Positions 6,960 through 60,590 of a DNA stretch of 64,000 nucleotides are shown here, one piece after another. The DNA lies in the NCBI GenBank assembly GCA_026874595.1, contig CM049311.1, positions 35,071,176 through 35,135,175 on the forward strand. The letters run 5' to 3'. Under the pieces are notes generated by a model that did not search any database, was not told the DNA's origin, and was given only the letters and a program-made list of their open reading frames with translations. How positions within the stretch are numbered: the first letter of the stretch is position 1; each line of letters begins with the position of its first letter. The position numbers were made by a program, and so were the translations under genes. This DNA is from Sipunculus nudus. Taxonomy: Eukaryota; Annelida; Sipuncula; Golfingiida; Sipunculidae.

Positions 6960-9770
6960 TGACAAGGTACATTATATTGATGCCCACCACGTCTACATAT
7001 TACACAATATTGACATAATTTCTGGCACGTACATAGGTAACAAACAGTTATACAATATATAAAAATAGGAATATATCTGATTCAACTTGTTCTCGTTTAC
7101 TGAGGCTGACATTGGGATGGGGTTCGGAGAAGGAAACAGTGTGGGCAGCAAGGAGGGTTGGATGTAGAGAGAAAAGGAAATAGAGTGAGAGGGACGGAGC
7201 ATTCAACAGTACTTAAACACCTGGACGGTTAAAATCTAAAACATTATGAAATGTAAATAAAGTCTGAGAGAAAGAGGTAATCTAGGCTATGGTTGGTTGA
7301 TATGATTGAAGAAATTGTTGCAAATAATATTTTAAGATCTGACCTTGCGTTTTCATTGGATACCTTTTTGACAGGCTGTTGACAGTTCAACATTTTACAC
7401 ATTTGTCTAATGAGATCGAATTTTTTTAATTTAAACTTTAATTAAACTTTTTTTTCTATTTTATGATATGTATGCTGGAATGATGGGAGTTACAACATCT
7501 CTGTATTAACATAGTGTATATACATATAGGATTTCCACTTAATTCAACAATACTTACAGGATTAAATAGTTCATTCACAATTACATAATATTTAAAAAAG
7601 GACAGACAGACTGTTAGACAAACAAAGCTGATAATATATTTTAATATTTTAAAGTTTTTCATCTGCAATATTACACATCTGAATACATAAATTGCTTTCA
7701 AATTTCAGACTTTAATGGCTTAAATCCATACACATACAGCATATGAAAGTTATTTCAACAGTGCTTAAAGGAAAAATTTCATAATTAGTATATATATTTA
7801 ATGATAATTGAGAGATGATGGACAGACAAGAGCTGATCACTTTATGTTCCATTCTCCTGGGGCAAGAATATGTTTCAATATTAGATCTTAATGTTTTCTA
7901 ATCCAATTATCTTTCAAATTGAAAAAAGTGTACACATTTGCAATAATAACTAATGTCCCAGTGCACAGGTGACGGTGAGGTGCTTAGGATCAATGACAGC
8001 CGGGGGGGGGGGGGGGAGAGATGGGATTAACAACACTTTTGCATAAACATTCAGGGCAAACAAAGCCTGATCTCCAATTCTGCTGAGGCTCGAAAATAAT
8101 GAAAACATGTTTGTATTAGATCCTCATTTTTTTATTTTTAAGTTTAATTTGTGTACATTTCCAATATAACATATATTTCTGAATATAAACGTTGATTCAT
8201 AATTCTAAATTGCATCATCATAAATCTCAATCTTGTCATGTAACACCACATCATGCATACAAATGTATATTTATATATTCATGGGGGGGGGGGGAGGGGG
8301 TGTGATATGAGAACAATTGTACACCTGTCACAGCAGGGGATCTCCCCCAGTGACTGAAACAAATCAGGAACCCTGGCATAGCTGACTTCCAGTGACCTGG
8401 AGTGGCCTACCTGCATCTGGAACAAAGCAAGTGACTACAATAGAGCCTCAAGATAAAATTTAATAACTAGCCTAATTATCAACCTTTTAGTTTCAAATTT
8501 CAGATTTAAACACATTAAATACTTATGTTTACATTCTGAGAAAATTAAATCAACAGTACTCACAGGAAAAAAATTTGCCATGGTCAAAGTTGGGTAAAAT
8601 TTCAGGTATTGATTTTATGTTTATGCTAATACCTTATAAAATTTACAAAATACAGATCTAATTTTGGGTATACAATTGAATCTTAATTAAACAAAGTTAT
8701 ATACTTGAAAAAATTCTCTAGCTTCAATAATTTTCATGTAACCTGAGTAAATATCTTTCCTGATTTTTTACAAAGTCAATTTTGTTTGTGCACATAACTT
8801 AAAACAATTACGCAATACTGACATCATTTCTGGCATGTGCATAGCGAATGTATAGAAAAATATGTATATTATATATGATCCAAGTCAGATCAGTGGTTTT
8901 GATACTAGGCAGTCCTGAAGTGTAACAAAGGGTTTTTAATGAAAAAATGAAGTTTTTCATTAATATCTCGAAGGAATTAAGTTCTGGTGACCAAATTCTT
9001 GGCATGGTAGGGGATTTTGGAGACATCGTACTGTATGCCTAATTTAAGGAACTTAGAGCTGAAGCTGGGGAGCTGAGCTCTAGCAAACTGCATAACACTA
9101 GGTTGATGTAAACAATATGTGACATGGTGCTTGAAAACTTGAATAAAATCTACAGTTTTTGATCAACTGGTTTCAAATTTTAAATGTTAACAGTTGAAAT
9201 GCTAACAAAAACATGCTTTGAAAATTAAATCCACAGCAGTTACAGGAAGAAAACGTGCCATGGTCAAAGTTGGGCAAAGTTTAAGGTACCAATTTTTTAT
9301 TTTTGCTAATATTTTAAAAAATTTAAAAGATTTTGAACAAATTTTGGGTATACAATTTAATTTTGATAAATAAAAGTTATATTACTGGAAAAAAAAGTGC
9401 TTAGCTTTAACAAGTTTTGTGTTAAGTGATCAAATTTTTTTCCTGATTATTTACAAAATGCATTATGTTTGGGCCCATAACTTTTTTAAATTATAAAATA
9501 CAGACCTAATTTCTGGCATGTACATAGGAACTATATAGAGGATTATTTATGGTAAATATGAGGAAAAACAGATGAGTGGTTTTGATATTAGGCAGTCCTG
9601 AAGTGTGAAAATAGGATTTTAATAAAAAAATTGAGGTTTTTCCTTAATTTCTCAAAGGAATGAAGTCGCAAAGACCCAGTTTTCGGTTTGGTAGGAGATC
9701 TTGGGGATATCTAACATTATGCAGAATTTTGGATTCCTAGGTCTTACGGTTTCAAAACGTGCCACATCTA

Positions 9771-9810
9771 CGGACGGACGGACGGACGGACAGACGGACG
9801 GACGACGGAC
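9771..9810. repeat. (GACG)n tetranucleotide microsatellite
   Basis: Repeated CGGA/GACG units with a few variants (GACA, GACGAC). The same type of tract recurs next to hairpins at 50510-50540 (reverse orientation), 54893-54940, 56450-56480 and 60520-60540. Confidence 0.9.
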
Positions 9811-9825
9811 AATGGACCACGACTA

Positions 9826-9856
9826 TAGCTCAGATGACTTATAGTCAGCTGAGCTA
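9826..9856 (+). other. Terminal stem-loop of the 6.9-9.9 kb element
   Basis: Arms TAGCTCAGATGACT (9826-9839) and AGTCAGCTGAGCTA (9843-9856) pair at 13 of 14 positions around a TAT loop, and are followed by nine As. A reverse-oriented homologue sits at 50452-50482. Confidence 0.8.
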
Positions 9857-9865
9857 AAAAAAAAT

Positions 9866-10779
9866 ACTCCATCGCTATTATGGTAAGCTGTTCACATAAA
9901 ATTTAAGTTGAGTGATTAGGACAATTCTACACAGAATGCACTAACAGGTAAGTTATAAAGAGTTTTGTGCCCAAAAGGGTGCCAGGTCTGACGTGGTAGA
10001 GAAAGTGGTATTTTGTGAGGATCATCAGGTTCGGCAGAGATTCATCTGAATTCTTTGAGGTTATCTGTCACTCCTGATTTGCCTCTATTGTAAACAGCTC
10101 ACACAAGGGGTTTTATCGTTTACTTTCATAGCTTCCACCTACGATCCAGTAAATACATTCATCCAGTTGCTTGACCTTATCATACCCAGAACAGTATAGA
10201 CATTCAATTTTGATTGTCCTTAGGGGCAGGTAAGGTCTAACAAAAACGAACTTGTTATTGCACTGTGCAATTTAATTTTTGTCATAAATGAGGAAGCTAA
10301 ACTCCTAGACTAATGAAATTGTACAGACGTATTCAAATTATAGAATCTTTTTACACACCAATTACCAAAAACGATCATGCAGTATTCATGAAATTATAAA
10401 CCTCTATGAGGTATAAAATCGAATATATATATATATAAACTTATTCATATCGAAATGTAAATCATTGTTCAAGTATAATTGCATTATTTATGGCACCAAA
10501 ACAGTGGGGCTAAAATATATTAAATGAAAAGCACATTTTTTCTCAATTATGTGTTTTCTTGCTTGAAACCGATTTTTTAACCTTTGTTTGATTTAAAAAA
10601 ATAAAGAAATTACAGTAACATTACATTTTCTGACTTAATTAAGATAAAATCATTAGTTTCATAGAGCAAGATGATGTTACAGAGACGTAGATAATGTCAT
10701 GGCGCATTTATGTTTGCCTGGTATGGCAAAGTCAGAGAACATTCTACGACGCTGTAACTAGAAAAAAAAATCCAGCAAT

Positions 10780-10824
<45 letters not shown>

Positions 10825-11179
10825 TGTACAGAAAAACATTTGTTGATCGTCAAATAATAGAATTATGTGGCTAGATGGATGCTGTGTATAATCGTATCAT
10901 ATAAAGAGCATTAGTTGTGTGCAAAATACACTGAGGTGGATCATGCTGGAGTCGTTTTATTCTTATCGGTCCATTCCTGCCGTGATATTGACTCGTTGTG
11001 AGTGGTATATTTCCTGGTATCTAGTGAAACGATTACTTCCATCAGTCATAACAAATCTACGTATCAATGACTGTCAAATTGCCATCTTGCAATGGTTGAA
11101 CTTGAGATTTTTATTACGAATGGATCTAAATTATTTATACAGCCAAAAGCCCAGCGTGCATCGTCTGTTATAAATGATC
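9866..11179. other. No gene recognised; two (AT)n tracts
   Basis: Unique-looking AT-rich sequence with (AT)n at 10422-10437 and 10783-10822. An 84-codon open frame at 10919-11173 has no recognisable motif and is probably chance. Confidence 0.6.
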
Positions 11180-11682
11180 ACGACTGGTCCATAAAACCGG
11201 TTGTCATGGAAGAAGTGCTGATACAAAAAAGACCTTTTGACATTTATGACCGTTGATGATAAGATAAAGAGTGCAATTTAAAGGCCACGTGTCTTGCTGC
11301 AGTTCAAAAGTATCTTCTCGCCGGTTACCTTTATTCCTTGCCTCTTGCAAATTACATTTATGGGAAACCGACAAGCTGACTGCAGAGGTACTATGTGTCT
11401 CAAAGAACTATTACAGATCAAAATAGAAAATAATCGTGGGTCATTCATAGTTGCTGTGCGTCTGTTATCAGCAAAACGTTTGCACAGACTGAGTATCAGT
11501 TGCATGAAAGGGACCATATGCCTTATTTTCTCTTAAAGAAGTTAACTAATTTGAACATGAAGTTGATTATTTCTTACAAATACTCTATTGCAGTTTGATC
11601 GATACCATTGAATAGTGGAATTACTTTAAAACCGGAGATGATTGTTCTTGCCATTTGTCCTAATGACTAATCTGGCTTTTTT

Positions 11683-12062
11683 GGGATAGAGCAAAGGACT
11701 CAAAGCTAGGAGGTTGTGAGTTTGAAGCTTAGCCGAGACGGTTATGTTTTTAACGTTTGGCCCCACCCAGGGTGAGCGCTTCGCAGGATTACTGGGATGG
11801 CCGTGCCAGAAAGCCGTGTTTCATCTACAAACGAGTGCGCCTTTCGAGGATTCATCGGTGATATGACCCAGCAATATAGACGATTACTCACACGGGCCTC
11901 CAGGTGAAGAGGTTACCGGGTCTATATAACAGCGGAATATAAATTGAAAAGCGTTTGTCATTTCCCATTTACGTAGTCCGAAACCATAATTGATATCTGC
12001 AGGTGTACATATACCTAGTTAATCTACCATAACAAAATGTAGGCGATGACCTTCAACAAAAA
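11683..12062 (+). mobile_element. tRNA-like SINE copy A (within U1)
   Basis: The segment from GGGATAGAGC to the CCTTCAACAAAAA end matches copies B (19936-20317) and C (49350-49729). C lies outside the duplicated blocks and so fixes the approximate element boundaries. The start carries A-box-like (TAGAGCAAAGGA) and B-box-like (GAGTTTGAAGC) words of an RNA polymerase III promoter. The most conserved body is ACAAACGAGTGCGCCTTTCG and GGTGATATGACCCAGCAAT. No SINE family name is assigned. Confidence 0.55.

Positions 12063-14099: not shown

Positions 14100-14102
<3 letters not shown>

Positions 14103-14183
<81 letters not shown>
14103..14183. repeat. (TC)n-(TA)n compound microsatellite
   Basis: TC repeats to about 14145, then TA repeats. 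The same compound tract occurs at the matching position in U2 (33239-33315), so it predates the duplication. Confidence 0.95.
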
Positions 14184-14185
<2 letters not shown>

Positions 14186-14291
14186 TATCATGTCTTAAAA
14201 AACTTTTTATTCAAATAACTTTTTTTTCATATCTTTGACATTCTAAAAGTCACAATAAAAGACAGTGGGATATATTGCCTGCGTGATTGAG

Positions 14292-14293
<2 letters not shown>

Positions 14294-14348
<55 letters not shown>

Positions 14349-14354
14349 TATATA
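14294..14354. repeat. (TA)n microsatellite, U1 only
   Basis: An almost pure TA run. The homologous place in U2 (about 33430-33445) has only a T-run, so this tract expanded after the U1/U2 split. Confidence 0.9.
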
Positions 14355-22261: not shown

Positions 22262-24143
22262 TTAGAGTTTGCCTTTTTGTCAGGACTAACTGTGAAGCAG
22301 AGCAGTAAGATATTCATTCTGAGTTGCCTCTTTTTATACTGTTGATATTTTTAATAGGATAGATTTCTAAATAAATACCACTTTCCGTAACGGAAACTAG
22401 ATGTTTGTTACCAGTTTGCTATATTGCAAGTAAGTGCATGACTTATCCTGTTCCGGTTTAATGTTAATACAAGGTCTCCGATGTTTATTTGAACCGTGGG
22501 GCAAACAGAGTTTTAACATGATTATATACCAGTCTGCTATATTGCCAGCACGTGCATGGCTCATCCTGTTCTGGTTTATGTAAATACAAAGTCTATTAAA
22601 TGCTAGTGATAAGCTAAATTAATAAAATCAGTAGTTGATCAAATCTGGTTTAATTCTATACCCTGCTTTGACTCAGGAGTTCAGGGATTATGTCTCAAAC
22701 AAACTCTAGCAGTCCAGTGTCAACTAACTTTACCGGATTCGAAGACATACATGGTTCGCCTTGGGCTATATACCTGGATCATAGAGTGCCATTAAGATCC
22801 TTTTGTTTTAATCTTTAAAATGCAGTTTTTCACTAAATGTTTTAAGCACTGTGTTGCCCTGTCATTCCCCAGGTATAAGGGAGATCATGTTAAGCACTGA
22901 CTGTTGTACTGGCCGAACAATTATAATATCAATAGGGTTTATGGTTTTGCCCTTAAGAGAATATCATCTCTCGCTTACTAGGATAGAATTGTAACTATTA
23001 GATCACAAAAATGGAGATACATATTGTCAATGTTTTTTTTTTTATATTTATTTTCTTTTATATAAACATTTTACTAGAAACACACATGATAATAAACATG
23101 AAAATAACTGATTTGTCATTATTCTGGTGATATCTATTTTAATTCCTTGCAATTGCTAACTTTCTCATGACTTCATTTGGCAAGGTAGCCAAGCTTGAAA
23201 TAATTATAAGATATAATAGACTTATAAAAGCACCGGTGATAATCAAAATTAAAAAAATGACGAAATGATTTTCATATTCAATCAATGTTATCTTTCCTAC
23301 CATGCAAAGTAGAACTCATAAGATCTGATGTTTTTCTGTCAGAAAGGGATTATATTTATATGATTATGAACTTATAGACTGATATTGCTTATTATCCCTT
23401 TAAACCTGACATTAAATATATTACTTAGATAGCTTTATTTTGGAATATGAAAGTTCAAAATACACAAGGGCCTAATTGTGAAATAATCAATCTATCAAGC
23501 AATTCTTAAAGGAGTCTTTATCACACAGCGAACATTCACACTGAACAGTGAAACTTAACATAAGAAAACAAATTTTATATCTTAAATGTATTATAATCTG
23601 TTACCTGTTCTGTTGATTTTAAATGTTTAATTTTACAAAGTGCCCCACTGGTCATAATACACAGCTGAATCTGTATTGGTCAGTGATCTAATTCTTATCA
23701 ACTAAGGAGAGTTTAAGAGAACCTGTATACACAACGTCTGAACATCCCAGGTCTAGCGATTACTAGTTGTGCCTTGATATATATCATACTGATATTTGCA
23801 GTCTGTCATTCACAAAAAGAAACTTAAACGTGTTACATCATCTTTTTGCATTGTTCATAATCGCGAATACTGATGGAACAGTAGAGTGTGAAGCTAAGAA
23901 ATAAAATTTCAGCTTTAGTTAATCATAATCGGTGAGCTCTATTTAGATAATTTTTCTTGCCATTCAGAAAAAAAAAACTACAAATGTACCGGTTTTGCTA
24001 GCAGAAGAAAGGTTAACCTAAATGGTGCCATCTGAAGTTTATATAATCGTAAATGTCACATGATCAATGTTTGGTAAAGCACATTACAAATTGTAGGAAA
24101 AATCAAATATAAAATACAACAATAAGCGAATTAAAGTTTAACT

Positions 24144-24443
24144 CTACGCTAAGGTAATGCTATCTCTCACATAAAAGCTATTTTTTTTATTTCCTGATTT
24201 TAGTAGGAAGAACTGAAAAAGATCATTTTGACTCAAATCAGCATAAGTGGCGATACTTGCAACTAACACTGACATAGTGGTCATGGGATCAATATGCTGG
24301 GTACTGGTTATAACATTATGAATACAAACACTTGTGATCAGAAATGGTAAAATAAGGTCAAGACGAAAGGTGTTATTTTTTTTGGCTTGCACCAGATAAG
24401 ACAACCTATGGGTTACAAACAAAACACCAGTGATTATTGCCAC
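24144..24443 (-). other. Hydrophobic open frame, possible gene fragment (weak)
   Basis: A 99-codon frame with two or three candidate membrane segments (IITGVLFVTHRLSYLV; LILPFLITSVCI; MSVLVASIATYA). The duplicate at 29637-29915 keeps most of it, but the duplication is too young for that to be evidence of selection. The first 45 residues faintly recall the N-terminal membrane region of TMEM26-like proteins; I would not rely on this. Chance is the default explanation. Confidence 0.12.
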
Positions 24444-26000
24444 GGAACTCGGAGCTGACAGTTGCGGCAGATCCTGCTGTGTTCGGTTACCATCATAACG
24501 TTATATTTGTTGACGTATTCTATAAATGGAGTATTTTCACAAGGGTATCGCTGAAACGGGATGGGGGGGGGGGGGGGGGGGGGGTCGAGGTCCGGAACAC
24601 CTTTTTCAGTCGCCACAACATTTTTAAGGGTTTCAGACTAAGTTTTGTGACCTGTAACCCTTCCCACTCTTTTCCAGTTCAGGGGACCTTTTTTTATAGG
24701 TTTTGCCCTTAGTCATGGCGTTGACCCCTCCTCTCTTAAATCCTTGATCTCCCCGTGTGAGGTCATAACTGTATGTGCAAACACCTATTGATAAAAAATG
24801 ATAATTCATTGAAAAGATTGCTTGATATAAGTATGGCATATAAAGTTGTATGATGTAAATTTATATAACCACTCCTTTGTCGTTTTTCCCCAAGGGTGGG
24901 TGTTACTATAAGAACGTATTACTTAAGCGGTATATACCCAGGGGTCATAAATGGCATGTCATACTGAAACGTATGGTTCAAGCTAACATTTCAGGCCAAA
25001 TTTGACTGGACATTTTCTGCAGTAGTTTGTAGAGTAAATAGTAGAAATAGTAGGAATCAATAAATAGTATAACCACTCTGAAGTCGATGTCCTTGAAATG
25101 AAAAAAAAAATATATACGTCATCCGACATAAAACATCCATTTATTCATTGAAAGCTACCACTTTCATACTGCTATCAGGCATTTTTATTACCTAAACATG
25201 TATACCTATCAAGCACACATGGTAAACATTTGTCACCAAAATGGTACCGATGATCCAAATTTTTAGGTCTTGCTGAAGTACTATAAAAAGGAATTCGCTT
25301 CACATTTGTCCGCGATGTTCTCTGCTGACATACCTGATTTTATGTTTTATTATTCTCGCGGTGACATGGCCGGTTTGACAACCATTAATTTTTTATGAAC
25401 ACAAAGTTTTAAGTGATTTTCCCTGTTTTCCACATTGCAAGGAGAGTTCCATGTAACGAAAGCCGCCAAACTTCCTTCAGCAAAGACTGGAATGCGACCT
25501 TTACGTTATTCACATAAATGCCTCGAGCACAGGATTAAGCAGCTTAAATTAAGGTCTGTGCATGTGAATTTTACTCTCTTGCAGTGAGGGATTTAAGAAT
25601 GCTTTGCTCTGACTCATGTGCGTGGTCAGTAAGTGTGTTAACCACATGACTCTCGTTTAATGAAAAGGAGGGGTTCAACGAAGGGGGATAAATGAAAAAA
25701 AAAAAAAAAAAAATAATAGGAGGTCCACATAGATTTAAAAACGGTTGCGACTTCATTTGGGTCCGCTTCTGCTACTAACGAGGTATGCATGTTTCCGTAT
25801 CTTTCTACAGGAATAGTTTCCCTGCCTAAAAACGTACATTTAATTAGTCTTTCATGTCTTCGACACTTCAGCTTATTTCTTTGTACCTGCAACAATCGTG
25901 ACCAGTCAAAGACAATCGAAAACAATGTTCCCGCGCCCCATTCACAAATGTATCATTACTCACCTAGTCTTCAGGCTAAACATACCGGTGTAAAGACTTC

Positions 26001-26122
26001 AGATTACCCCCCTTTTTCAGGTTACCCCCAGTAATCTGAAATCGATTTCAGATTACCCCCGGGGGTAGCCTTAACCTGATTTCAGGTTATCCCCCTACAG
26101 TTAAGATTACCCCGTCGATGAT
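26001..26122. repeat. Cluster of TTACCCC motifs with nested perfect palindromes
   Basis: Six or so copies of a CAG(A/G)TTACCCCC-type motif alternate in orientation. A perfect 26-bp palindrome lies at 26031-26056 (half site GTAATCTGAAATC), overlapped by a 14-bp palindrome TACCCCCGGGGGTA at 26054-26067. An identical arrangement occurs at 31101-31222 in unit B. It could be a small foldback element or a protein-binding cluster. Confidence 0.75.
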
Positions 26123-27980
26123 CAAGCTGATAAGATATCTTTTCGTATAAGTAGGACCACTTAATAAAAGGTATTATCTCAAAAACGTTACTCGGATCCT
26201 ATTTTTTATTAATTTTGCAGGAGTATCTTATGGAATCCTCATTTGATCAGCTTTGTGTCACACTAAATTGATTTTTTTTTTTACTTTTTAAGATTTTTTT
26301 AACGCCCGTCTTATAGACGGATCGTATTATTGTTTAATGGCATAAATGTCGTTCCGTCGATTTTCTGCAGTATCCACACATGATACTCAAGTCAATGTAT
26401 AAGATAAGTATCTAAATAATCATTAGAAAACATTTTTTGTGGGGGGGGGGAGGGGTTAATCTGAAGTAATATTTAAAATATATTTGTACATATTTTATTG
26501 AGACAGTATCCACGGAAAATCTATTTTTTTTTTACTTTTAAAATAAGAACGAGCCACCTTTCCTTATCTTCATTAAATCATCTCCCCTACCCGGTAAAAA
26601 TCCCGGTATACCGGGTGTATCTGCTAGTAAATAATAATTGATTATATATGTTACCGTATATCTAAGATAGCTATTATAAATAATCAGATTATTAAAATAA
26701 TCTGCCCACAATGCACTATGTGTTCTACTTGTTTGATATTCACTGTGGTCCTACAAAAAATTGTACGTTTTGTGAATATATTCTTTAAATAATTTATTCA
26801 TCAAGTAATGGATAAGCTGTGTGGGTCATTGTAAGGTGATATAATTGAACCCTCACGAAACAGGGAGAAGTCGAAAATCGCGAAATATTAACCTAGTGAA
26901 TACGAAGCCAGCTAGAATATCCGTCATAATGAAAAATTCAGTGGTCACGAGCGCTTTAATGGGAAGTTTAAATAAATGCAATTCAGTTAATGCTTTCAGT
27001 TCGTTAACAATAAAGCTGACTTTTAATTTAGCTTCGCTGGAAGTAAAATCAGGCCCGAATAAAATAACCAAAGACGATTCCAACAATTGTGATATCGGTA
27101 AAAGGACAAAAAAAAAAAATAAATAAATAAAACTGTTCATTGTTTTTTTTAATGATTGTAACCTCCATTTCCTTTAATTAATTTGGAAAGTTTTTGAACA
27201 CCAATTCAAATAGCTCAATTTAACAGGGGCTCTTTAAAAAGACAAATTAACGATAAGCGGGGTGTGGCAACGCGCGAGGAAATTATGCCTCTCTTTCATG
27301 AAGAAATATGCATGCGTTAAATTATAAATGTCACATTCGATTTAAGCGGCAGCTAACCACCCGAACGTCGACATTATTTTCTTAAGACGTTGGGGCGGCA
27401 TTACTAGCTATCAATAGTAAGTCCTCTTCATTTCTGGCCGAACCTGTCTGTCAAATTGATATTCTCACAATTTTGATTAAAAATGTTACCACATCCCGAG
27501 TCATAAACTAAAGATTATTTAATTATCTCCACTAAACTTCCATATTTTCATGCCAAAATAATTGATAACAAAGCCCTTTACATCACAAAATTGAACAAAT
27601 ATCACTCCATTAAACTAATCTTTAGGAAACGTTATCGGAGATTGCAGCGTAGACTTAAAGAAAGAGGGTACATTTTTCTGCATGTTTATATGTAGTGACT
27701 CATGTCACTGTTTAAAAACAAAACATGAATGTTGTTAATTGAAATGCTTCCATCCAGCAAATATTGTGTTCCGACCCTTGGAAAAGCTAATTAAATTGTA
27801 TCATACTTGCAAGTACCGGCCCTTTTATTAAAAAAGGCCTTTGAGTCATGTGTTATGGCTAATTCGATTACATTTTTATTTATACCCTGAGACATATTCA
27901 AATTCATACTCACATATGGTTCTCATTGAATAAACTTTTTTATAAACTAATCCATATTATAAGTTAGTTGAATACACATG

Positions 27981-30900
27981 ATTAACATGATTATATACCA
28001 GTTTGCTATATTGCCAGCAAGTGCATGGCTCATTCTGTTCTGGTTTATGTTAATACAAAGTCTATTAAATGCTAGTGATAAGCTAAATTAATAAAATCAG
28101 TAGTTGATCAAATCTGGTTTAATTCTATACCCTGCTTTGACTCAGGAGTTCAGGGATTATGTCTCAAACAAACCCTAGCAGTCCAGTGTCAACTAACTTT
28201 ACCGGATCCGAAGACATACATGGTTCGCCTTGGGCTATATACCTGGATCATAGAGTGCCATTAAGATCCCTTTGTTTTAATCTTTAAAATGCAGTTTTTC
28301 ACTAAACGCTTTAAGCACTGTGATGCCCTGTCATTCCCCAGGTTTAAGGGAGATCATGTTAAGCACTGACTGTTGTACTGGCCGAACAATTATAATATTA
28401 ATAGGGTTTATGGTTTTGCCCTTAAGAGAATATCATCCCCGCTTACTAGGATAGAATTGTAACTGTTAGATCACAAAAATGGAGATACATATTCTCAATG
28501 TTTTTTTTTGTTTAATATATATTTTCTTTTATATAAACGTTTCACTAGAAACACACATGATAATAAACATGAAAATAACTGATTTGTCATTATTCTGGTG
28601 ATATCTATTTTAATTCCTTGCAATTGCTAACAGTCTCATGACTTCATTTGGCAAGGTAGCCAGGCTTGAAATAATTATAAGATATAATAGACTTATAAAA
28701 GCACCGGTGATAATCAAAATAAAAAAAATGACGAAATGATTTTCATATTCAATCGATGTTATCTTTCCTACCATGCAAAGTAGAACTCATCAGATCTGAT
28801 GTTTTTCTGTCAGAAAGGGATTATATTTATATGATTATGAACTTATAGACTGATATCGCTTATTATCCCTTTAAACCTGACATTAAATATATTACTTAGA
28901 TAGCTTTATTTTGGAATATGAAAGTTAAAAAAAACAAGTGCCTAATTGTGAAATAATCAATGTATCATACAATTCTTAAAGGAGTCTTTATCACACAGCG
29001 AACATTCACACCGAACAGTGAAACTTTACATAAGAAAACAAATTTTATATCTTAAATACATTATAATCTGTTACCTGTTCTGTTGATTTTAAATGTTTAA
29101 TTTTACAAAGTGCCCCACTGGTCATAATACACAGCTGAATCTGTATTGGTCAGTGATCTAATTCTTATCTACTAAGGAGAGTTTAAGAGAACCTGTATAC
29201 ACAACGTCTGAACATCCCAGGTCTAGCGATTACTAGTAGTGCCATGATATATATCATACTGATATTTGCAGTCTGTCATTCACAAAAATAAACTTAAACG
29301 TGTTACATCATCTTTTTGCATTGTTCATAATCACGAATACTGATGGAACAGTAGAGTGTGAAGCTAAGAAAAAACATTTCAGCTTTAGTTAATCATAATC
29401 GGTGAGCTCTATTTAGATAATTTTTCTTGCCATTCAGAAAAAAAAAACTACAAATGTACCGGTTTTGCTAGCAGAAGAAAGGTTAACCTAAATGGTGCCA
29501 TCTGAAGTTTATATAATCGTAAATGTCACATGATCAATGTTTGGTAAAGCACATTACAAATTGTAGGAAAAATCAAATATAAAATACAACAATAAGCGAA
29601 TTAAAGTTTAACTATACGCTAAGGTAATGCTATCTCTCACATAAAAGCTATTTTTTTTTTATTTCCTGATTTTAGTAGGAAGAACTGAAAAAGATCATTT
29701 TGAATCAAATCAGCATAAGTGGCGATACTTGCAACTAACACTGACATAGTGGTCATGGGATCAATATGCTGGGTACTGGTTATAACATTATGAATACAAA
29801 CACTTGTGATCAGAAATGGTAAAATAAGGTCAAGACGAAAGGTGTTATTTTTTTTGGCTTGCACCAGATAAGACAACCTATGGGTTACAAACAAAACACC
29901 AGTGATTATTGCCACGGAACTCGGAGCTGACAGTTGCGGCAGATCCTGCTGTGTTCGGTTACCATCATAACGTAATATCTGTTGACGTTTTCTATAAATG
30001 AAGTATTTTCACAAGGGTATTGCTGAAACGGGATGGGGGGGGGGGGGGGGGGGGGGGGGGAGGTCGAGGAGGTCCGGAACACCTTTTTCAGTCGCCCCAA
30101 CTTTTTTTAAGGGTTTCAGACTGAGTTTTGTGACCTGTAACCCTTCCCACTCTTTTCCAGTTCAGGGGACCTTTTTTATAGGTTTTGCCCTTAGTCATGG
30201 CGTTGACCCCTCCTCTCGTAAATCCTTGATCTCCCCGTGTGAGGTCATAACTGTAGGTGCAAACACCTATTGATCAAGCACACATGGTGAAAATTTGTCA
30301 CCAAAATGGTACCGATGATCCAAATTTTTAGGTCTTGCTGAAGTACTATAAAAAGGAATTCGCTTCACATTTGTCCGCGATGTTCTCTGCTGACATACCT
30401 GATTTTATGTGTTTTTATTCTCGCCATGACATGGCCGCTTTGACAACCATTAATTTCTTATGAACACAAAGTTTTAAGTGATTTTCCCTGTTTTCCACAT
30501 TGCAAGGAGTTCCATGTAACCAAAGAAGCCAAACTTCTTCGGCAAAGACCGGAATGCGACCTTTACGTTATTTACATAAATCCCTCGAGCACGGGATTAA
30601 GCGGCTTAAATTAAGGTCTGTGCATGTGAATAACCCTACTCTCTTGAAAATGAGGGAATTTAAATATGCTTTGCTCTGACCTATGTGCGTGGTCAGTAAG
30701 TTTGTTAATCACATGACTCTCGCTTTATGAAAAGGAGGTGTTAACGAAAGGGCATAAATGAAAAAAAAAAACCAATGAGAGATCCATTTTTTCAAAACAG
30801 GGGTGAGGTTAGGTGATGCGGGGTTTCAAGGATTTAAAAACGGTTGCGATTTCATTTGGGTCCGCTCCTGCTACTAACGAGGTACGCATGTTTCCGTATC

Positions 30901-48343: not shown

Positions 48344-48345
<2 letters not shown>

Positions 48346-50448: not shown

Positions 50449-50930
50449 TTTTAGCTCAGATGACTATAAGTCATTTAAGCTATAGCGATCACTCTTTGAG
50501 TCTTTGTCCGTCGTCCGTCTGTCTGGCCGTCCGTCCTGGTGTCCATTAGCAGGTCACAAATCGTAACTTCCGGACCTAGAAATTTTTAACTTAACATCCA
50601 CGGAGGTTCATAAACAAGTTCATATGAAACCTGAAATTTGATCTCTGTTACCCATATCCTCAGAACTGTTAGGCTCGTTAGTACATCCCCCCCCCCAAAT
50701 AATTAAAAAAAATTATATAAAAGCTCCAGTATCTGAACAACTAATGCATTGTACGCAATGAATTCTTGCATGCAGATTGATCATGGTGTGTTCATCAGTT
50801 CCTGCAGACTAGTGGCGCCACCTGAATTTTTTTTCGAATTTTTATGCAATGTTTTCTCTATTTTTTAATGAAGCAGTACTACCATTTATAGGGATAAAAC
50901 ATTAACCATTAGATCTGGAATCTTCCTATT
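50449..50930 (-). mobile_element. Hairpin-ended minisatellite element fragment, reverse orientation
   Basis: Reading right to left it has one unit of the 330-bp repeat found at 56640-59400 (GGTGGCGCCAC box at 50812, GGTAACAGAGATC, CTAGGTCCGG), then a GGAC-type tract (about 50510-50540), then the stem-loop TAGCTCAGATGACT / AGTCATTTAAGCTA (50452-50482), then an A-run. The hairpin matches that at 9826-9856 apart from two changes compatible with G-U pairing. Confidence 0.55.
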
Positions 50931-52115
50931 GTACACGCAGGGAGGTCCAAGGCAAATCCTGGAAACCCGAAAACTACGAGCCAAACAGGATTTTGAGCAC
51001 TCAGAGAGTCACATGGGGCAAAAATTGTATCAGCTTGGTCTGGAAAATTTTAACATGACATCCAGGAAGGTGCTCGGTAAATCTCCGTGGAAACCTGAAT
51101 ATAGGCGACTGGCCAACAATATGATTAAGTGCACCCAAAAACCAATTGTATCGGCTAGCACTAGAATCTTTTCATGTAACATCAAAGAAATGCTTGGGCA
51201 AATCTCCATGGAAACCTAAAATTAGGCCACAGTAACCTTTATTCTGCGAGCTTCCGGCCAAAAACATGATTTTAAGCACTCAGGTAGTCAGTCATAGGAC
51301 AATACTGCACGGTTGGACCTCGATCATGGTAATATGACACCAGGGATTTCCTAGGCAAGTCTCCTTTGAATCACTTTGACCTATATTATGTGAGCTTTAG
51401 GAGAAAACATGGTTTAAGCATTGTGAGAGTCAGATGGGCACAAATCAATACGGATTGACATACAAACCTCTAACCCATATATTGTGAGCCTCGAGCGGAA
51501 AACCTAATTTTGATCACCCAAAGTCAGAGAGGGCACAGATCTTAACTGGTGCATATAAATGTCTTTCTTTATGTAAAGGGAGGCCATTGTAAAGTCTCCT
51601 TCGGCATCTGAAAGTCACTGTGACCTATATTCTGCAAGATGTGCGAAACAAGATGATTTCAGCAAGCTATAACAGATATTTGTACGATTTGTTACAGTTG
51701 GACCTAGAAAATATTAATTAGATTAAGATCCAGGGAGGTCCCTGTTAAAATTCCTAGGAAACCTGAAATAATGTCACTTTTACCTATATTCTGGGAGCCA
51801 TGTGAAAGAACATGATTTTAGCACCCAATTAGTTAGTCGGGCACAAATTGTAACATTTGGACGGAGGAACTTCTAACTCAGGAGTTCTTGAAAAATCTTC
51901 TTTAAAACCTAATACATGTTTAAGGTAACTGTAACATATTTTCTTAGCACTATTGGCAAAAAGCATGATTCTGAGTACTCAGAAAGTCATTCTGCCAATT
52001 GTTCAAGGTTCCTTTACAAATAATTTTCACTCGATCATAAGATCAATAATTAATACATGCGTCACCTCTATGTCAAAGTCAGCTGAGCGTCATGGCCAAT
52101 AGGCCACTTGTTTAA
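50931..52115 (+). mobile_element. Degenerate minisatellite array ending in a GGCC hairpin
   Basis: Irregular units (about 145-270 bp) share (G/A)AGCACTCAGAGAGTCA, GGGCA(C/A)AAAT, TTGGACCT, GGCAAATCTCC(A/G)TGGAAACC and TATATTCTG(C/G)GAGC. The array closes with CAGCTGAGCGTCATGGCC-AATA-GGCCACTTG (about 52080-52110), a GGCC/GGCC stem-loop. The same terminus in reverse lies at 56529-56565. Confidence 0.45.
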
Positions 52116-53429: not shown

Positions 53430-53547
53430 CGTGGTCTTGACAGCACACAGGACTCATAAGAGCACAGATCGCTAGTTGGAGTACCGGTTTTACCTGAGCC
53501 GTGAGCTTGTTCATGGTCGACCTCAACCAGGACCCGGTGCCCTGCAG
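53430..53547 (+). mobile_element. Degenerate fragment of the tRNA-like SINE (copy D)
   Basis: GGACTCATAAG, GCCGTGAGCTTGTTCATGGTCGACC and CCCGGTGCCCTGCAG line up with the first third of copies B and C. The rest is missing. Confidence 0.4.
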
Positions 53548-53689
53548 TTGTCCTGCAGCTGTTCATAAATATTTTCTTATACTCAACTAATAAATTTGAA
53601 ATAAATGAACTGCGGATAACTTTAATAAAATCTAATTTATAAATAACTATAGATGTGTCGAAACAACACAAATGCCCCCGCCTAGAGCA

Positions 53690-56527
53690 AAGAGGAAATA
53701 TTTGTTAAATTTTGTAAGTTCAGGAGGTGTCATATGGTCAAAAGTAGGTCAACAAGGGCAAATTGCAAACTCGATCTGTAACGGGTCATTATCAAGCAAC
53801 ACACCAAAATCAGGCCAGTATCTGCAGGCATTGTGAGAAAAAAGTCCATACATGTGCATTTTTCATTCAAATTTCTGTCTTTCATGAAATTTTCTATGTT
53901 CAGGATCTGTCATATGGTCAAAAATAGGTAAACTGGGACGAAACGCGAACTCGATCTGTAAGTGGTCATTATGCGCCCACAGACCAGACATTAGGCCAGT
54001 ATCTGTAAGCATTGCATTGCGAAACTAGAATTTTTGTAAAAGCTGATCATCAGTTATAAATTTAAAATGGAGAGGTATGTACCATGTTTCATAACAATCC
54101 ACCAAATGCTTCCTCAGAAATAACCTCCTAAGTTTTTTTCTATACTAAGCTTTGTGACCGTGAAAATTAGGTCAAGATCTTTGAACTTGACCAAGATTTT
54201 GTAAATATCATGCATTAGCACTGAAGAAATAAAGATCCTGTGTTGAATACCTTTGGAGATATCCTGCACAAAAGGCCAAAATTGAAAAATCTGATAAAAA
54301 TTCATTAAAAAATCAGAAATTGTAGGTGGTGCCACCAAAATTGTGCAGCACATACAGATTATCATTCCAAATGACCATAGTAAGTTTTGCGAAAATCCAC
54401 ACAATGGTTCCTGAGATATAAGCTTCTGAGTGTTTTTGTATAATCAGCTCTAAAACAAAGAGAAATAGGTCAAGGTCACCAATCTTCGCACTTTACCAAG
54501 ATTTTGTTGATATACATCTTCACTGATGAAATAAAATTTCAACGGTGAATCCTTTCAGAGATTTCCCGCTCACAAGGCCAAAATTGATAAATCCGATAAA
54601 AATTGATTAAAAAAAAAACAGAAATTGCAGATGGCGCCACCAAAATTGTGCAGCACATACTGACCATCAGTCCAAATGATCATAGTAAGATTTGTGAAAA
54701 TCCACACAATGGTTCCTAAGATATAAGCTTCTGAGTGTTTTTCTATAATCAGCTCTAAAATGTAGAAAAATGGGTCAAGGTCACCCATCTTCGAACTTGA
54801 CCGAGATTTTATCGATATACATCTTCACTGATGAAATAAAGTTCCAACGGTGAATCCTTTTAGTGATATCCCGCTTACAAGGTAAAGGTTAACGGACGCT
54901 TGACGGACGGACGCCGGACGGACAGACGGACAGCTGGACAGCTTGGGTGATGACAATAGCCCATCAGCCTATGAGCTGAAGGCTAAAAAAGGCTGTACAT
55001 GTACATTTGTCATGAAAATTTCTATTTTTCATGAAATTTTCTATGTTTAGGAGCCGTAAAACGGTCAAAAGTAGGTCAATTGCGACGAAACGCGAACTCG
55101 ATCTGTAACTGGTCATTATCTGCCTATGCACACCAACAATCAGGCCAATATCTGCAGGCATTGCGAACAAAAGTCCGTACATGTGTATTGGTCATGAAAA
55201 TTTCTATTTTTCATGAAATTTTCTGCGTTAAGGCACCGTCAAACGGTCAAAAGAAGGTCAACGGAGACAAAACGCGAAATCGACCTGTAACTGGTCATAA
55301 TATGCCCACACACCAAAAATCAGGCCTGTATCTGCAGGCATTGTGAAAAAAAGTCCGTACACGTGCAGTTGTCATGAAAATTTATATTTTTCATAAAATG
55401 TTCTATGTTTAGGAGCCGAAAAGGGTCAAAAGAAGGTCAACTGGGACGAAACGCAAACTCGATCTGTAAATTGTCATTATATCTGCCCACACATGAAAAA
55501 TCAGGCCAATATCTGCAGGCATTGCGAAAAAAGTCCGTACATGTGTATTTGTCTTGAAAATTTCTATTTTTCATTAAATTTTCTAAGTTTAGGAGCCGTG
55601 AACGGTCAAAAATAATTCAACCGCGACGAAACGCGAACTCGATCTGTAACTGGTCATTATTTGCCATCACACCAATAATCAGGCCAATAACTGCAGGCAT
55701 TGAGAAAAAAAGTCCGTACACGTGCATTTGTCATCATAAATTTCTATTCTTTTAATGAAATTTTCTATGTTTAGGAGCCGTAAAACGGTCAAAAGTTGGT
55801 CAACCGCGACGAAACGCGAGCTCGATCTGTAAATAGTCATTATCTGCCCACACACCATAAATCAGGCCAATATCTGCAGGCATTGCGAAAAAAGTCCGTA
55901 CACATGCATTTGTCATGGAAATTTTGATTTTTCTTGAAATTTTCTATGTTTAGGAGCCGTTAAACGGTCAAAAGTAGGTCAACTGGGACGAAACGCAAAC
56001 TCGACCTGTAACTGATCATTATCTGCCCACACACTAAAAATCAGGCCCGTATCTGCAGGCTTTGCGAAAAAGTCCGTACATGTGCAGTTGTCATAAAAAT
56101 TTATATTTTTCATAAAATGTTCTATGTTTAGGAGCCGAAAAGGGTCAAAAGAAGGTCAACTGGGACGAAACGCAAACTCGATCTGTAAATAGTCATTATC
56201 TGCCCACACATAAAAAAACCAGGCCAATATCTGCAAGCATTGCGAAAAAAATTTCCGTACTTGTGTATTTGTCATGGAAATTTCTATTTTTAATGAAGTT
56301 TACTATGTTTAGGAGCCGTAAAACGGTCAAAAGTAGGTCAACTGGGACGAAACGCAAACTCAATCTGTAACTGGTCATTATGCGCCCTCAGACCAAAAAT
56401 CAGGCCCGTATCTGCAGGCATTGCGAAAAAAGTTCGTACAACTGATTACGGAATGACGGAAGGACGGGATGACGGACTTGGGTAAAACTATATGACCCGG
56501 CCACTTTGTGCCGGGGGGCATAATAAA
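53690..56527 (+). mobile_element. Element with about 180-bp tandem units, GGAC tract and terminal hairpin
   Basis: The marker GGTCAAAAGTAGGTCAAC recurs at about 53738, 53917, 55063, 55243, 55420, 55605, 55787, 55967, 56142 and 56326, a spacing of 175-185 bp. Other constant parts are ACGAAACGC(G/A)AACTCGATC, CTGGTCATTAT, ATCTGCAGGCATTGCGAAAAA and GTCCGTACATG. The array ends in a decayed GGAC tract (56450-56480), a hairpin (CCCGGCCAC-TTT-GTGCCGGG, about 56494-56515) and an A-rich end. It is interrupted between units 2 and 3 by the element at 54025-54990. There is no coding capacity. Confidence 0.65.
54025..54990 (+). mobile_element. Minisatellite element nested within the 180-bp array
   Basis: The surrounding 180-bp unit breaks after GCATTGCGAAA (about 54024) and resumes near 54991 (TGTACATGTACATTTGTCATG), so both ends of this element are visible. 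Inside are about 300-bp units (GGTTCCTGAGATATAAGCTTC at about 54408 and its match at about 54711; GGTGGTGCCACC and ATGGCGCCACC boxes). A GGAC tract (54893-54940), a stem-loop (about 54957-54984, TAGCCCATCAGC with GAGCTGAAGGCTA) and an A-run follow. No obvious target duplication is seen, which would fit rolling-circle insertion. Confidence 0.6.
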
Positions 56528-56528
56528 A

Positions 56529-56565
56529 ACTAGTGGCCCATGGGCCATGACGCTCAGCTGAATTC
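56529..56565 (-). other. Reverse-oriented GGCC-hairpin terminus
   Basis: TGGCCCATGGGCCA palindrome inside ACTAGTGGCCCATGGGCC followed by ATGACGCTCAGCTGA. It is the mirror image of 52080-52110. It abuts the 3' end of the 180-bp array element, placing two termini head to head. Confidence 0.5.
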
Positions 56566-56639
56566 AAGGAATGTTGAACAATGAGCAAAATGACAGAGTG
56601 CAAACATTTGCCAGAGTGCAAACAAATCATGGATTTTGT

Positions 56640-59425
56640 GAAGAGTCCTTAGAAATTGGTTTCAGTGGGCTTTTGGACGGATGACAACTTCATTGGAAGG
56701 TCTCATAAATAGAAAAAAATGCGTAAAAATTTGAAAAAAAAACACTGGTAGTGCAACCAGTCTGCAGGAACTGATGTAAAACTCCATGATCAATATATAT
56801 CAAAAGAATCATGGCTATCAAGGCATTTGTTATTCAGATACTGGAGCTTTTGTTTGTATAAATGTTTAATTATTCTTGGGGGTATTTACGAGCCCTATAG
56901 CTCGGAGAATATGGGTAACAGAGACCTAATTTCAGGTTCCCAAGGAGCTTTCAGTAGTCTCCCTTGATGTCAAGTATGACGATTCTAGGTTCAGCAGTTA
57001 CGGTTTGTGCCATGTTAACAGATGAAGGTCTCATAAATAGAGAAAAAATGCCTAAAAAATTGAAAAAAAATACAGGTGGCACCACCAGTGTACAGGAACT
57101 GATGAAACACTCCATGATCAATATGCATGCTAAGTATCATAGTCATTAGTGCATTAGTTATTCAGATACTGGAGTTTTTGTATCACATTTTTAACTAGAA
57201 AACATTTGCCAGGCGACTATGTGTATCCGCCGAAGTCAGAATGGTACAGGTGGAGTGAGGGATGGATTAAGTGGTATGTTACACCACTCCTGAATATAGT
57301 CCACTAAAACTCTGAGAAAAGGGCATTAATTTAATCAACAAAAACACCTGGCACTACCTGTTTGGTTTATGAAAAAACTCTCAAAGACGGATTGACATGC
57401 CAAATTTAAGACCAATACCTTGAGCCATTCCTAAGATATAAGCAATTTTCACCCAAAGCAAATGTACAGATGGACACCACAGGAAAACAAATGCAGATGG
57501 CGCCTACAGTCATAAGTACAACATGGAGGAGTCCAAGTTATATGGATATGCACAATTTCAGGCCAATATGGCACACCAATCCTAAGAAAAGATCAGTAAT
57601 TTATTCTACGGAAATGGGAACGTAAATCATTGCAGATGGCACCACCAGCCATGAGTACAAGATGGAGGAGTCCATGATCTATAAATATGGACAAATTCAG
57701 GCCAAAATGGCAAAGCACTCCTTAGAAAAGGGCATTAATTTATTCTACAAAACCGGGAAGGTAGGTGGCGCCACCTGTCTGGTTTAACAGAAAACTTTCC
57801 AAGATGGGTGGACACGCCAAATTTCAGACCAATACCTTGAACCACTCCTGAGGTATGAGCAATTATTACCAAAAGCAAATATACGGATTGACGCCATGTG
57901 AAAATTTTTGCAGATGGCGCCACCCGTCTTTTTTATGAGATGGAGGTGTCGAGGATCTATGAACATGCACAATTTCAACCCAATACATTGAAGAACCACT
58001 AAGAAGAACAGATGGCAAATGCACAGTTGGATGCTACGCAAAAAGTATTGTAGGTGGCCCCACCAGTCGTGATTACAAGATGGAGAGATCCAAGATCTAT
58101 AACCATGCAAACTTTCAGCTCAATACATTAAGCCACTCCTGAGGTACCGGCTGTTATCTAAAAGACACCCAGATTCAGACTGCACAGGAAGAATTGCAGG
58201 TGGTGCCACCAGTCTTTGTTATGTACAACTACATAGATGAGGGAACAACTATGCCCGGGTTACGGAAAGATTCGTCCAAGGGTCTCAGAGGAGTTCTCCA
58301 GAAACGAACACAGTTTTTGTATCACATTTTTATTTATTTCGGGGGTACTTACGAGCCCCATAGCTCATAGAATATGGGTAACAGAGATCTAATTTCAGAT
58401 TTTCATGAAGACTTTTCATGGACCTCTCTAGATGTCAAGTATGAAGATTCTAGGTCAAGTGGTTACGATTTGCGCCCTGTTACAAGATGAGGCTTTATTT
58501 GAAAGTCTCAAAAAGAGAAAAAAAATGCGTACATATTAAAAAAAAATATAGGTGGCGCCATCAGTCTGCAGGAACTGATGAAACACTATATGATCAATAA
58601 GCATGCAAAAATCATGGCCCTTAGTACATTCAGATACTGAAGCTTTTGTATCACATTTTTATTTATTCTTAGGGGTACTTTCGAGCCCCATAGCTCTGAG
58701 GTTATGGATAACAGAGACCTAATTTTACGTTTCCACACAGACTTTTCATGGACCTCCCTGGATATTAAGTTTAAAGATTCCAGGTCCAGTGGTTACGATT
58801 TGTGCCCTGTTAACAGATGACAGTTTCATTGCAGGTCTGTAAAAAAGAGAAAAAAAATCGTAAAAATTGGAAAAAATACAGATGGCGCCACCAGTCTGCA
58901 GGAAGTGATGGAACATCCCTTGATCAATATTCTTGCAAAGAATCATGGTGATCAATGCAGTTGTTATTCAGATACTTGAGCTTTTGTATTAAATTTTGCA
59001 TTATTTCAAGGGGGGTACTTCGGAGCCCCATAGTTCAAAGGATATGGGTAACAGAGACCTAATTTCAGTTTTCCAAGGAGATTTTTCATGGACCTCCCTG
59101 GATATTAAGTTTGAAGATTCCAGGTCCAGAGGTTACGATTTGTGCCCTGTTAACAGATGACAGTTTCATTGTAAGTCTGAAAAAAAGGAGAAAAAAATCG
59201 TAAAAATTGGAAAAAAAATTGAGCTTTTGTATCAAATTTTGCATTATGGGGGGGGGGGGGGGGTACTTCGGAGCCCCATAGCTCGAAGGATTTGGGAAAC
59301 AGAGACTTAATTTCAGGTTTCCAAAGAGATTTTTTATGGACCTCCATGGATGTTGAGAGAGAAGATTCCAGGTCCAGCGGTTACGATTTGTGCCCTATTA
59401 ACGGACTTTCAGTCAGCTGAGCTAA
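56640..59425 (+). mobile_element. Array of about 330-bp units interrupted by a 130-150-bp array
   Basis: The 330-bp units share GGTAACAGAGACCTAATTTCAGG, TTCATGGACCTCCCTGGAT, GATTCTAGGTCCAG(C/T)GGTTACG, CTGTTAACAGATGA, GGTGGCGCCACCAGTCTGCAGG and GAGCTTTTGTATCA. TTCATGGACC recurs at about 58415, 58745 and 59095. The array is interrupted at about 57200-58310 by units of 130-150 bp (GGCGCCACC boxes at about 57640, 57770, 57917, 58055, 58200). It closes at 59396-59425 with ACGGACTTTCAGTCAGCTGAGCTAA, half of the hairpin seen at 9826-9856. There is no coding capacity. Confidence 0.55.
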
Positions 59426-59497
59426 TGATATGAAAAACGAAAATTAATCACGAAAATTGGGAAATTAGATAAAATGAGAGTTATTTCAGCTCAACGG

Positions 59498-59540
59498 GGG
59501 GCCGCGCGCCGAAGGCCCCAGCTCTGGATCTGCCACTGAT
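59498..59540 (-). other. hAT-like transposon terminus, first
   Basis: On the minus strand it reads CAGTGGCAGATCCAGAGC then a GC-rich stretch, a common form of hAT-type inverted terminal repeats. The partner end is not found in this orientation nearby. Confidence 0.3.
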
Positions 59541-59577
59541 AGCAAAGGAAATTTATTACTTGTGTGTTTATGTATGA

Positions 59578-59627
<50 letters not shown>

Positions 59628-59685
59628 TTGTATTAGTATAAGATTAAATGAAATTCCGAAAGGACGGCGAGTACTGGATGCGACC

Positions 59686-59738
59686 GGGGGGGGGGGGGCA
59701 TGGCCCCCTGCGGCCCCCCCACCCCGGCTACGCCCCTG
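59686..59738 (-). other. hAT-like transposon terminus, second, with 13-G run
   Basis: On the minus strand it reads CAGGGGCGTAGCCGGGGTGG, followed by C-rich sequence. The CAGGGGCG start is characteristic of many hAT ends. No partner end is found. A (TA)n tract (59580-59628) lies between the two termini. Confidence 0.35.
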
Positions 59739-59740
59739 AA

Positions 59741-60235
59741 AAAGTTGGCTTCACATGTATCCTGAAGCTTGTTAAGGATGTAACTTCTATGCCCTTGACT
59801 TTGTGACCCCAAAACTAAATGGTGCTCTTCCCATATTACTATGAAACTATACGTGAAAGATGGAAGGTTTGCGATACTTTATTCAATATATATAGAAAGG
59901 TTATGAGGTTCATAATTATCCTTAATTACTGCAACCAGTTTCAAATAAGAGAACTCACTATGGTTGAACTTTCTAATTTTCATAACATAACAAGTCACTC
60001 CCATACTTGAAAAATGTTTTACCATTTTCTTCACTAAATATGGAATTATTCAAGATAAACGTCTTTCTTATATTGAAGGTCATGACCCCAATTTGAATAT
60101 ATTTCATACTATCATTCATATCAATGCATATGCACAAAATAAACGAATCTGATGATTATTTTTGTTGGTTATTAAATCTCATTCTATTCTCACACTGCAT
60201 GTGTTGGGGTATTAAACGGCACAGACCTAAAAACT
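59741..60235. other. No gene recognised
   Basis: AT-rich sequence without recognisable motifs. Confidence 0.5.
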
Positions 60236-60590
60236 CGTAGGTGGCGCCACTAGTCTTTCGTTCAAGAAAAAGCTATCAAAGACCTGCTGGCCACTTAATT
60301 TCAAGAACAGTTGGTCAATCCTAACTTTCGATGTCTGGCCATTTGAATGTATTTTATATTATTTCTGGGGTGCTCAAACACGCCCTGTACCTCGCAGAAT
60401 ATAAGTCACAGTGACCTTATTTCAGGTTTCCAAAGATATCTTTTTATAGAATCTCAGATAATACACAGTTTTATTATCATAGCCGCTACGTTTACAGTTT
60501 GTATGTGCCTTGCTAACAGACGGCCGGACGGACGATTGACGAAGCGGCATCACCAAACCTCAGTTGACTTAAACTGAGTTGCGTTAAAAA
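60236..60590 (+). mobile_element. Single-unit hairpin-ended minisatellite fragment
   Basis: It begins GTAGGTGGCGCCACTAGTC, has the GGTTTCCAAAGATATC block of the 330-bp units, a short GGAC tract (60520-60540), a weak hairpin (CTCAGTT / AACTGAG) and an A-run. Same arrangement as the larger arrays but with about one core unit. Confidence 0.4.

Follow-up and report, generated by a model that had tools for sequence, protein, structure and literature searches.

A 64,000-nucleotide stretch of the Sipunculus nudus genome (GenBank assembly GCA_026874595.1, contig CM049311.1, positions 35,071,176 to 35,135,175; hereafter the window) contains six elements, E1 to E6, which together occupy 17% of it. Each of these loci is almost certainly a copy of a HINE (Helentron-associated interspersed element), a DNA transposon of the rolling-circle type that encodes no protein. 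HINEs are a known kind of element, already described in oysters; this analysis adds the families of this species, together with empty sites and a right end that also belongs to a set of Helentron genes. The evidence consists of the anatomy of the copies, their TT flanks, their copy number, and the occurrence of the last 39 bases of E6 in elements with Rep, Pif1 and endonuclease matches. A sequence-only reading of the window had proposed that one mechanism, consistent with pearl or Helentron-associated elements, mobilizes the loci; anatomy and the coding copies with the same right end bear out the Helentron-associated part of that proposal.

At five loci in the window, core repeats are accompanied by a GGAC-type tract, a hairpin and an A-run. 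The order described earlier holds at all five for the tandem cores and hairpins and at four for the tract, as the locus ending near 56527 (E4) has a degenerate tract only. The tract word GGACGGAC occurs nine times in the window (0.37 expected), and these occurrences fall at four of the five loci that had been named. When the left hairpin regions were compared with 300 shuffled sequences, 0, 3, 1, 8 and 8 shuffles folded as well for E1 to E5, respectively, and 156 did so for E6. The hairpin regions near 9826 (E1) and 50452 (E2) are 78.6% identical over 84 bp, in agreement with their suggested homology (9826-9856 and 50452-50482).

Orientation follows from comparison with published HINEs. Oyster HINEs have a left flank composed of a 5′ subterminal repeat, its inverted copy and then a GTCY/GTCC microsatellite (PMC7492417, PMC4067079), and a right flank with a 3′ subterminal repeat and a palindrome (PMC7492417). 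An inverted copy beside the 5′ subterminal repeat, together with a left-flank microsatellite, as in DINE-1 and the Pacific oyster Cg_HINE, is present in E1 to E5. Because the published layout places the GTCC-type microsatellite on the left, the shared module of GGAC tract, hairpin and A-run corresponds to the left (5′) end in reverse complement, and not to the common 3′ terminus that had been proposed. The A-run is then the T-rich target seen on the opposite strand. In element orientation, the order is T-rich target, 5′ subterminal repeat and inverted copy, GTCC microsatellite, and core repeats.

A scan of the window for the subterminal repeat located the right ends, a 32-base block common to E1, E2 and E6 that comprises the subterminal repeat, a palindrome and CTTG or CTAG; it reads TCAGCTGAGC followed by 22 more bases to CTTG or CTAG (Table 1). 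Against a 35-base consensus built from these three ends themselves, E1, E2 and E6 have 6, 1 and 2 mismatches; elsewhere in the window no place comes closer than 12 mismatches, and ten Markov resamples reach 13 at best. The subterminal inverted repeats are identical at 10 of 10 bases in E1 and in E6 and at 11 of 12 in E2. Of 300 shuffles, 0, 10, 18 and 57 folded as well as the right palindromes of E2, E6, E4 and E3. We treat E6 as a separate element because it has its own right end, matching the consensus, that abuts the T-run of E4. A comparable layout was found elsewhere in the genome at locus L024, with a family-A right end next to TTTTTATGCCCCC. The end of E3 can be compared with its family-B relatives L032, L040 and L047 (80-83% identity): L032 and L040, two of the three, have perfect 11-bp subterminal repeats and end TCTAG followed by TT, which supports the E3 position, and L047 is without a right repeat, as is E3. 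These ends revise the limits given in the sequence-only reading, in which E1 stopped at 6960 instead of extending to 6528, E6 was not separated from its neighbors, and E3 was not placed inside E4.

Table 1. Features of the HINE copies delimited in the window (positions are those of the window; strand is that of the element).
Feature	Positions	Strand	Description
E1	6528..9855	-	complete HINE with family A ends, 3,328 bp; both ends found via the 10-bp subterminal repeat
E1 left (5′) hairpin	9823..9855	-	subterminal repeat and inverted copy; T-run target adjoins at 9856-9864
E1 GTCC microsatellite	9770..9810	-	
E1 right (3′) end	6528..6559	-	subterminal repeat, decayed palindrome, CTTG, then TT
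E2	50453..52110	+	complete HINE, 1,658 bp
E2 left hairpin	50453-50485	+	
E2 tract	50507-50537	+	GTCC-like
E2 right end	52079-52110	+	
E3	54025..54984	-	family B HINE, 960 bp, 305-bp core; sits in the array of E4; terminates ATTCTAG, then TTT
E3 left hairpin	54954-54984	-	
E3 tract	54892-54934	-	
E4	53647..56524	-	HINE with 180-bp core, split by E3
E4 left hairpin	56488-56524	-	
E4 tract	56449-56478	-	degenerate
E4 proposed right end	53647-53679	-	tentative, 8-base match
E5	60240..60585	-	left part of a HINE; core akin to E2/E6
E5 left hairpin	60552-60585	-	
E5 tract	60521-60544	-	
E6	56530..59423	-	HINE; core units of 330 bp and about 139 bp; 10-bp subterminal repeats at both ends
E6 right end	56530-56561	-	directly adjoins the T-run of E4
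Palindromic box GGTGGCGCCACC	50811..50822	+	1 mismatch; in E2
Further 10 boxes	54325, 54630, 57075, 57764, 57913, 58053, 58199, 58551, 58881, 60240		

The nested pair E3/E4 provides an empty site within the window. An anchor word recurs every 177-183 bp in the 180-bp array of E4 but spans 1,147 bp across E3; subtracting the 960 bp of E3 leaves 187 bp, which restores the register of the array. E3 is thus inserted inside that array, and its insertion point is the A-run of a unit (a T-run on the element strand). Outside the window, a tandem array of 45-bp units contains L034 and L035, and its remaining units provide further empty sites. Among the 31 complete E1-type copies described below, TT ends the left flank in 30 (the exception is L014) and begins the right flank in 30 (the exception is L039), and all 31 terminate in CTTG. 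Insertion is into TT or T-rich DNA without target duplication, with a gain of two T possible. Of the two outcomes that had been named as telling against the earlier proposal, neither was seen: empty sites and flanks show no duplication beyond TT and no class with terminal inverted repeats, and tracts and hairpins are co-located throughout the genome, as the following counts show.

The host assembly (1,426,538,692 bases in 153 contigs) was searched on both strands, with backwards patterns as controls. Four consecutive GGAC units gave 11,589 + 11,441 matches (26 + 32 in the control), and the tract followed by a hairpin word, GGACGGAC-N20-50-GAGCTAAAA, gave 8,004 + 7,331 = 15,335 (0 + 1); these matches overlap, and one tract can be counted repeatedly, so they are not counts of elements. 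The right end TCAGCTGAGCGNCATGGCC matched 807 + 791 = 1,598 times and the left end CTTTTTAGCTCAGCTGACTATAAGTCATC 538 + 578 = 1,116 times, both with 0 + 0 in the control. Outside the host, the right-end pattern matched two stretches in viral contigs, both GC-rich, coding-like and without HINE features, and two left-end patterns had no match in viral or prokaryote contigs.

For a closer look at individual copies, 40 loci were fetched from 44 tract clusters among the first 100 GGAC places listed (C1 below 3.25 Mb), a sample that is not random and that, being chosen by exact tract, favors the E1 type. The left module precedes the tract in all 40 and was judged complete by eye in 38 (it is partial in L014 and L042). 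A script assigned 35 tracts to family A (E1-type), three to family B and two to neither, with an exact match to the 33-base family-A module at 29 of the 40. A family-A right end lies within the fetched stretch for 31 of the 35 E1-type copies. These 31 complete copies are 1,842-3,656 bp long, 21 of them 2,503-2,644 bp, and the best pairwise identity among them is 95.6%. Further along C1 (3705033-3746509), five tract-plus-hairpin ends lie on one strand at a spacing of ~10.4 kb, as if a segment with a HINE had been duplicated in tandem.

The sequence-only reading had suggested looking for a partner encoding Rep and helicase. The Pfam domain Helitron_like_N had 143 matches in the host (150 of 195 candidates were scored) and none in 14 control genomes; seven of the matches are in open frames of 2,229-2,426 residues. 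Partners were counted on C1 below 66.83 Mb, as right ends were listed up to C1:66,832,160; this part contains eight Rep loci, and at three of them an E6-type right end follows on the same strand, about 4.2 kb downstream. With ~800 ends on each strand of 1.43 Gb, a hand estimate puts the number expected within 5 kb at about 0.02. Coding copies lie at C1:63919400 and C1:65925600. In one of the three, L067, matches to Helitron_like_N, PIF1 and Exo_endo_phos were found; L068 has an endonuclease match and one labeled Herpes_teg_N, which we would guess to be an OTU-type protease of the sort mentioned for Helentrons (PMC4067079). L067 shares the last 39 bases of E6 without a mismatch, L068 and L069 share the last 37, and the match between E6 and L067 extends over 127 bp at 76%. 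A partner with Rep, PIF1 and endonuclease matches upstream of the E6-type right end was thus found, albeit with broken frames. New here is a protein-coding element (Rep/Pif1/endonuclease) that shares the right end of a HINE (E6). Rep loci at C1:65.88-65.92 Mb and 66.83-66.86 Mb have similar scores on opposite strands; together with the 99.8% identity of L068 and L069, this points to an inverted segmental duplication.

The intact Rep frames at L061-L066 (C8, C7, C3) were considered as partners and rejected, as the fetched stretches contain no family-A or E6-type end. They represent another Helentron family, in which L066:3-4349 is an open stretch of 1,449 residues with Helitron_like_N, PIF1 and Exo_endo_phos matches; a repetitive coding-like stretch lies upstream, and the ends of the element were not found.

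Several observations weigh against assigning all six loci to HINEs with a coding partner. Each of E1, E3, E4, E5 and E6 has a defective or tentative end feature: the right palindrome of E1 no longer folds (300 of 300 shuffles are equal), a scan of E3 found no right subterminal repeat (it is lost), the subterminal match of E4 is 8 bases only, a search of the window found no right end for E5, and E6 now lacks both GGAC tract and left hairpin. At the E3 empty site, the joined flanks contain 9 A (4-7 in other units) and an additional ATTGC in the left flank; therefore, a gain of a few T (TT) is indistinguishable from none. The coding copies sharing the E6 right end have broken frames, and their fetched stretches end short of their left ends, so that sharing is seen at the right end. 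L068 and L069 (99.8% identical over 8.9 kb, with the right flank in common) are one duplication, so there are only two independent partner cases, and no coding partners for families A, B and E4 were found.

By extension from what is known of the family, a Helentron Rep/helicase supplied in trans would nick the T-rich left junction, one strand would be displaced and copied up to a stop at the right palindrome, and the copy would be joined to a new TT site; any core between the ends would thereby be multiplied. On the strand as first read, the A-run after the hairpin could instead be taken for the poly-A tail of retroposed SINE- or LINE-like elements (short or long interspersed nuclear elements), with tract and hairpin as their 3′ end and target-primed reverse transcription as the means of insertion. 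We give this next to no credence, because the elements also have a fixed end on the other side, where the inverted repeat is matched, TT lies on both sides without a longer duplication, and empty sites run from TT to TT. Moreover, the coding partner that shares the end of one of them has a Rep/helicase instead of a reverse transcriptase, and the reverse transcriptases of the window are located elsewhere.

The satellite-like cores, the 16 of 40 sampled left flanks that lie in family-A-like DNA, and the existence of local duplications would also fit satellite arrays that multiplied through recombination, extrachromosomal circles or segmental duplication, the ends next to them playing no active part. 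Sharp ends on both sides with differing flanks, and empty sites in unrelated repeats, make that scarcely credible. Canonical Helitrons are a further alternative: they end in CTRR, insert between A and T, and are not known to have subterminal inverted repeats. Some right ends here are CTAG, which fits CTRR, and a palindrome lies just upstream. The TT flanks (30 of 31), the subterminal inverted repeats and the CTTG of all 31 complete E1-type copies nevertheless make a canonical Helitron very improbable, as does the C-terminal endonuclease domain of a coding copy, a distinctive feature of Helentrons (PMC4067079). We therefore retain the HINE assignment.

The cores were described earlier as many unrelated minisatellites of about 680, 330, 300 and 180 bp. 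The unit lengths agree with our measurements of about 684 bp in E1 (75% self-match over 561 bp at offset 684), 330 bp in E6, 305 bp in E3 and 180 bp in E4. The lack of relationship was overstated: the cores of E2 and E6 are 67-82% identical, and that of E5 matches E2/E6 at 74-88% over 41-81 bp. When copies were linked where more than 40% of the interior matches, the 31 complete family-A copies formed one cluster with E1, E2 and E6 a second, and E3 a third. One lineage of ends (GCTCAGCTGA) thus carries two core types here, as does “group 2” of PMC7492417. The two largest frames in E2 and E6 had no Pfam match in a scan of open reading frames of at least 110 residues, and neither a tRNA nor an Rfam match was found in the window.

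Core units of about 139, 305 and 330 bp contain a 12-bp palindromic box, GGTGGCGCCACC. With at most one mismatch, it occurs 11 times in the window, always within E2, E3, E5 or E6, and in none of ten resamples; 10 of the 11 are independent of the element limits, and the lower limit of E5 was placed at its box. In the fetched loci, which were selected for HINEs (275,452 bases), it occurs 47 times in 18 loci, compared with 1, 0, 0, 0 and 0 times in resamples. The conservation rank of the box among 12-base blocks is 2 of 120 in 139-bp units, 71 of 305 in 330-bp units and 145 of 290 in 305-bp units; since it is high only in the 139-bp units, selection on the box is unproven. In the 75 bases that follow the box, 330- and 139-bp units are related, as are E5 and 139-bp units (0 of 500 shuffles each); 330- and 305-bp units are probably related (4 of 500), and no clear relationship is seen between 139- and 305-bp units (103 of 500) or between E5 and 330-bp units (96 of 500). 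Common descent is sufficient to explain the recurring box. A literature search for the string returned papers on other subjects only, judged by title.

Copies that lie near each other tend to be on one strand. Within the initial 4.5 Mb of C1, this was the case for 63 of 68 pairs less than 20 kb apart and 204 of 222 at 20-100 kb, as well as for 81 of 95 adjacent copies (p about 5e-5), and the first 1.1 Mb contains long one-strand blocks. The strand polarity, very strong on these figures, was not borne out at that level. E6-type ends show no adjacency effect (50/99, p = 0.49). Among all 40 sampled copies, 30 of 39 comparisons agree (p = 0.02), in contrast to 16 of 23 (p = 0.20) once the 16 with family-A-like left flanks are removed. 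Over the wider range of C1 0-95 Mb, 38 of 51 pairs agree within 100 kb (binomial 0.0003) and 29 of 58 at 100-200 kb; for pairs between two end types, the figure is 16 of 23 (0.047). HINE-like flank DNA amounts to 28,475 bases on the same strand vs. 3,287 on the opposite strand, and nesting and duplication may explain much of the agreement. With regard to flank skew, G-C is positive in 6 of 31 unmasked and 11 of 33 masked cases, and T-A in 25 of 33 masked cases. Two further readings are conceivable, if rather unlikely. In one, the box is no relic of common descent but is retained in HINE cores because the Helentron replicase or a host protein uses it as a site. In the other, insertion occurs into single-stranded DNA at moving replication forks or transcription bubbles, hence the tendency to share a strand within about 100 kb.

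Other repeats were observed in the window. At 1102-3584, fragments of integrase, reverse transcriptase and RNase H belong to a retrotransposon of the long-terminal-repeat type, and a reverse transcriptase frame at 33942-34496 is probably of LINE origin. A short repeat family near 11720, 19985, 49390 and 53470, with a stretch like AGCCGAG..ATCACG..GACC, is possibly a SINE. Blocks of 300 bases at 22513-33000, 96-98% identical and spaced about 5.1 and 5.5 kb apart, are recent local duplications. An inverted repeat of 251 bases (61401-61651 and 63687-63937, 82% complementary, 2,035 bases between) perhaps marks a DNA transposon.

In layout, the copies resemble Cg_HINE of the Pacific oyster (PMC7492417): both have a 5′ subterminal repeat with inverted copy, a GTCY/GTCC-type left microsatellite, a satellite-like center, a 3′ subterminal repeat and palindrome, and a TT target without duplication, and “group 2” of Cg_HINE likewise combines related ends with different cores. 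Core units here range from about 139 to 684 bp, compared with an average of 140-180 bp in Cg_HINE; in addition, the authors of PMC7492417 were unable to link Cg_HINEs to autonomous elements, whereas here a coding copy has the right end of E6. The likeness to the pearl family (CvA, CvE, CvG), bivalve elements of modular build in which core repeats of about 160 bp form short arrays, is by description only; the pearl-related DTC84 repeats have a conserved palindrome, as do cores here (PMC7492417, PMC5139131, PMC11136912). DINE-1 and the mite and mosquito HINEs and Helentrons of PMC4067079 share the subterminal repeats, left inverted copy, microsatellite, central repeats, right palindrome, T-rich target, and Rep/helicase/endonuclease partners. 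The hosts differ, and the partners described there are intact and near-identical to the non-autonomous copies, whereas those found here are broken copies that share a right end.

In oyster genomes, much of the satellite-like DNA is carried by HINEs (PMC11136912). In S. nudus, the right end common to a HINE and a Rep/Pif1/endonuclease element, in an assembly where Rep-bearing frames reach 2,426 residues, makes it possible to test which protein mobilizes which element. If either the box or the strand agreement were to prove true genome-wide, it would give new insight into the way in which rolling-circle transposons retain their cores or select target sites.

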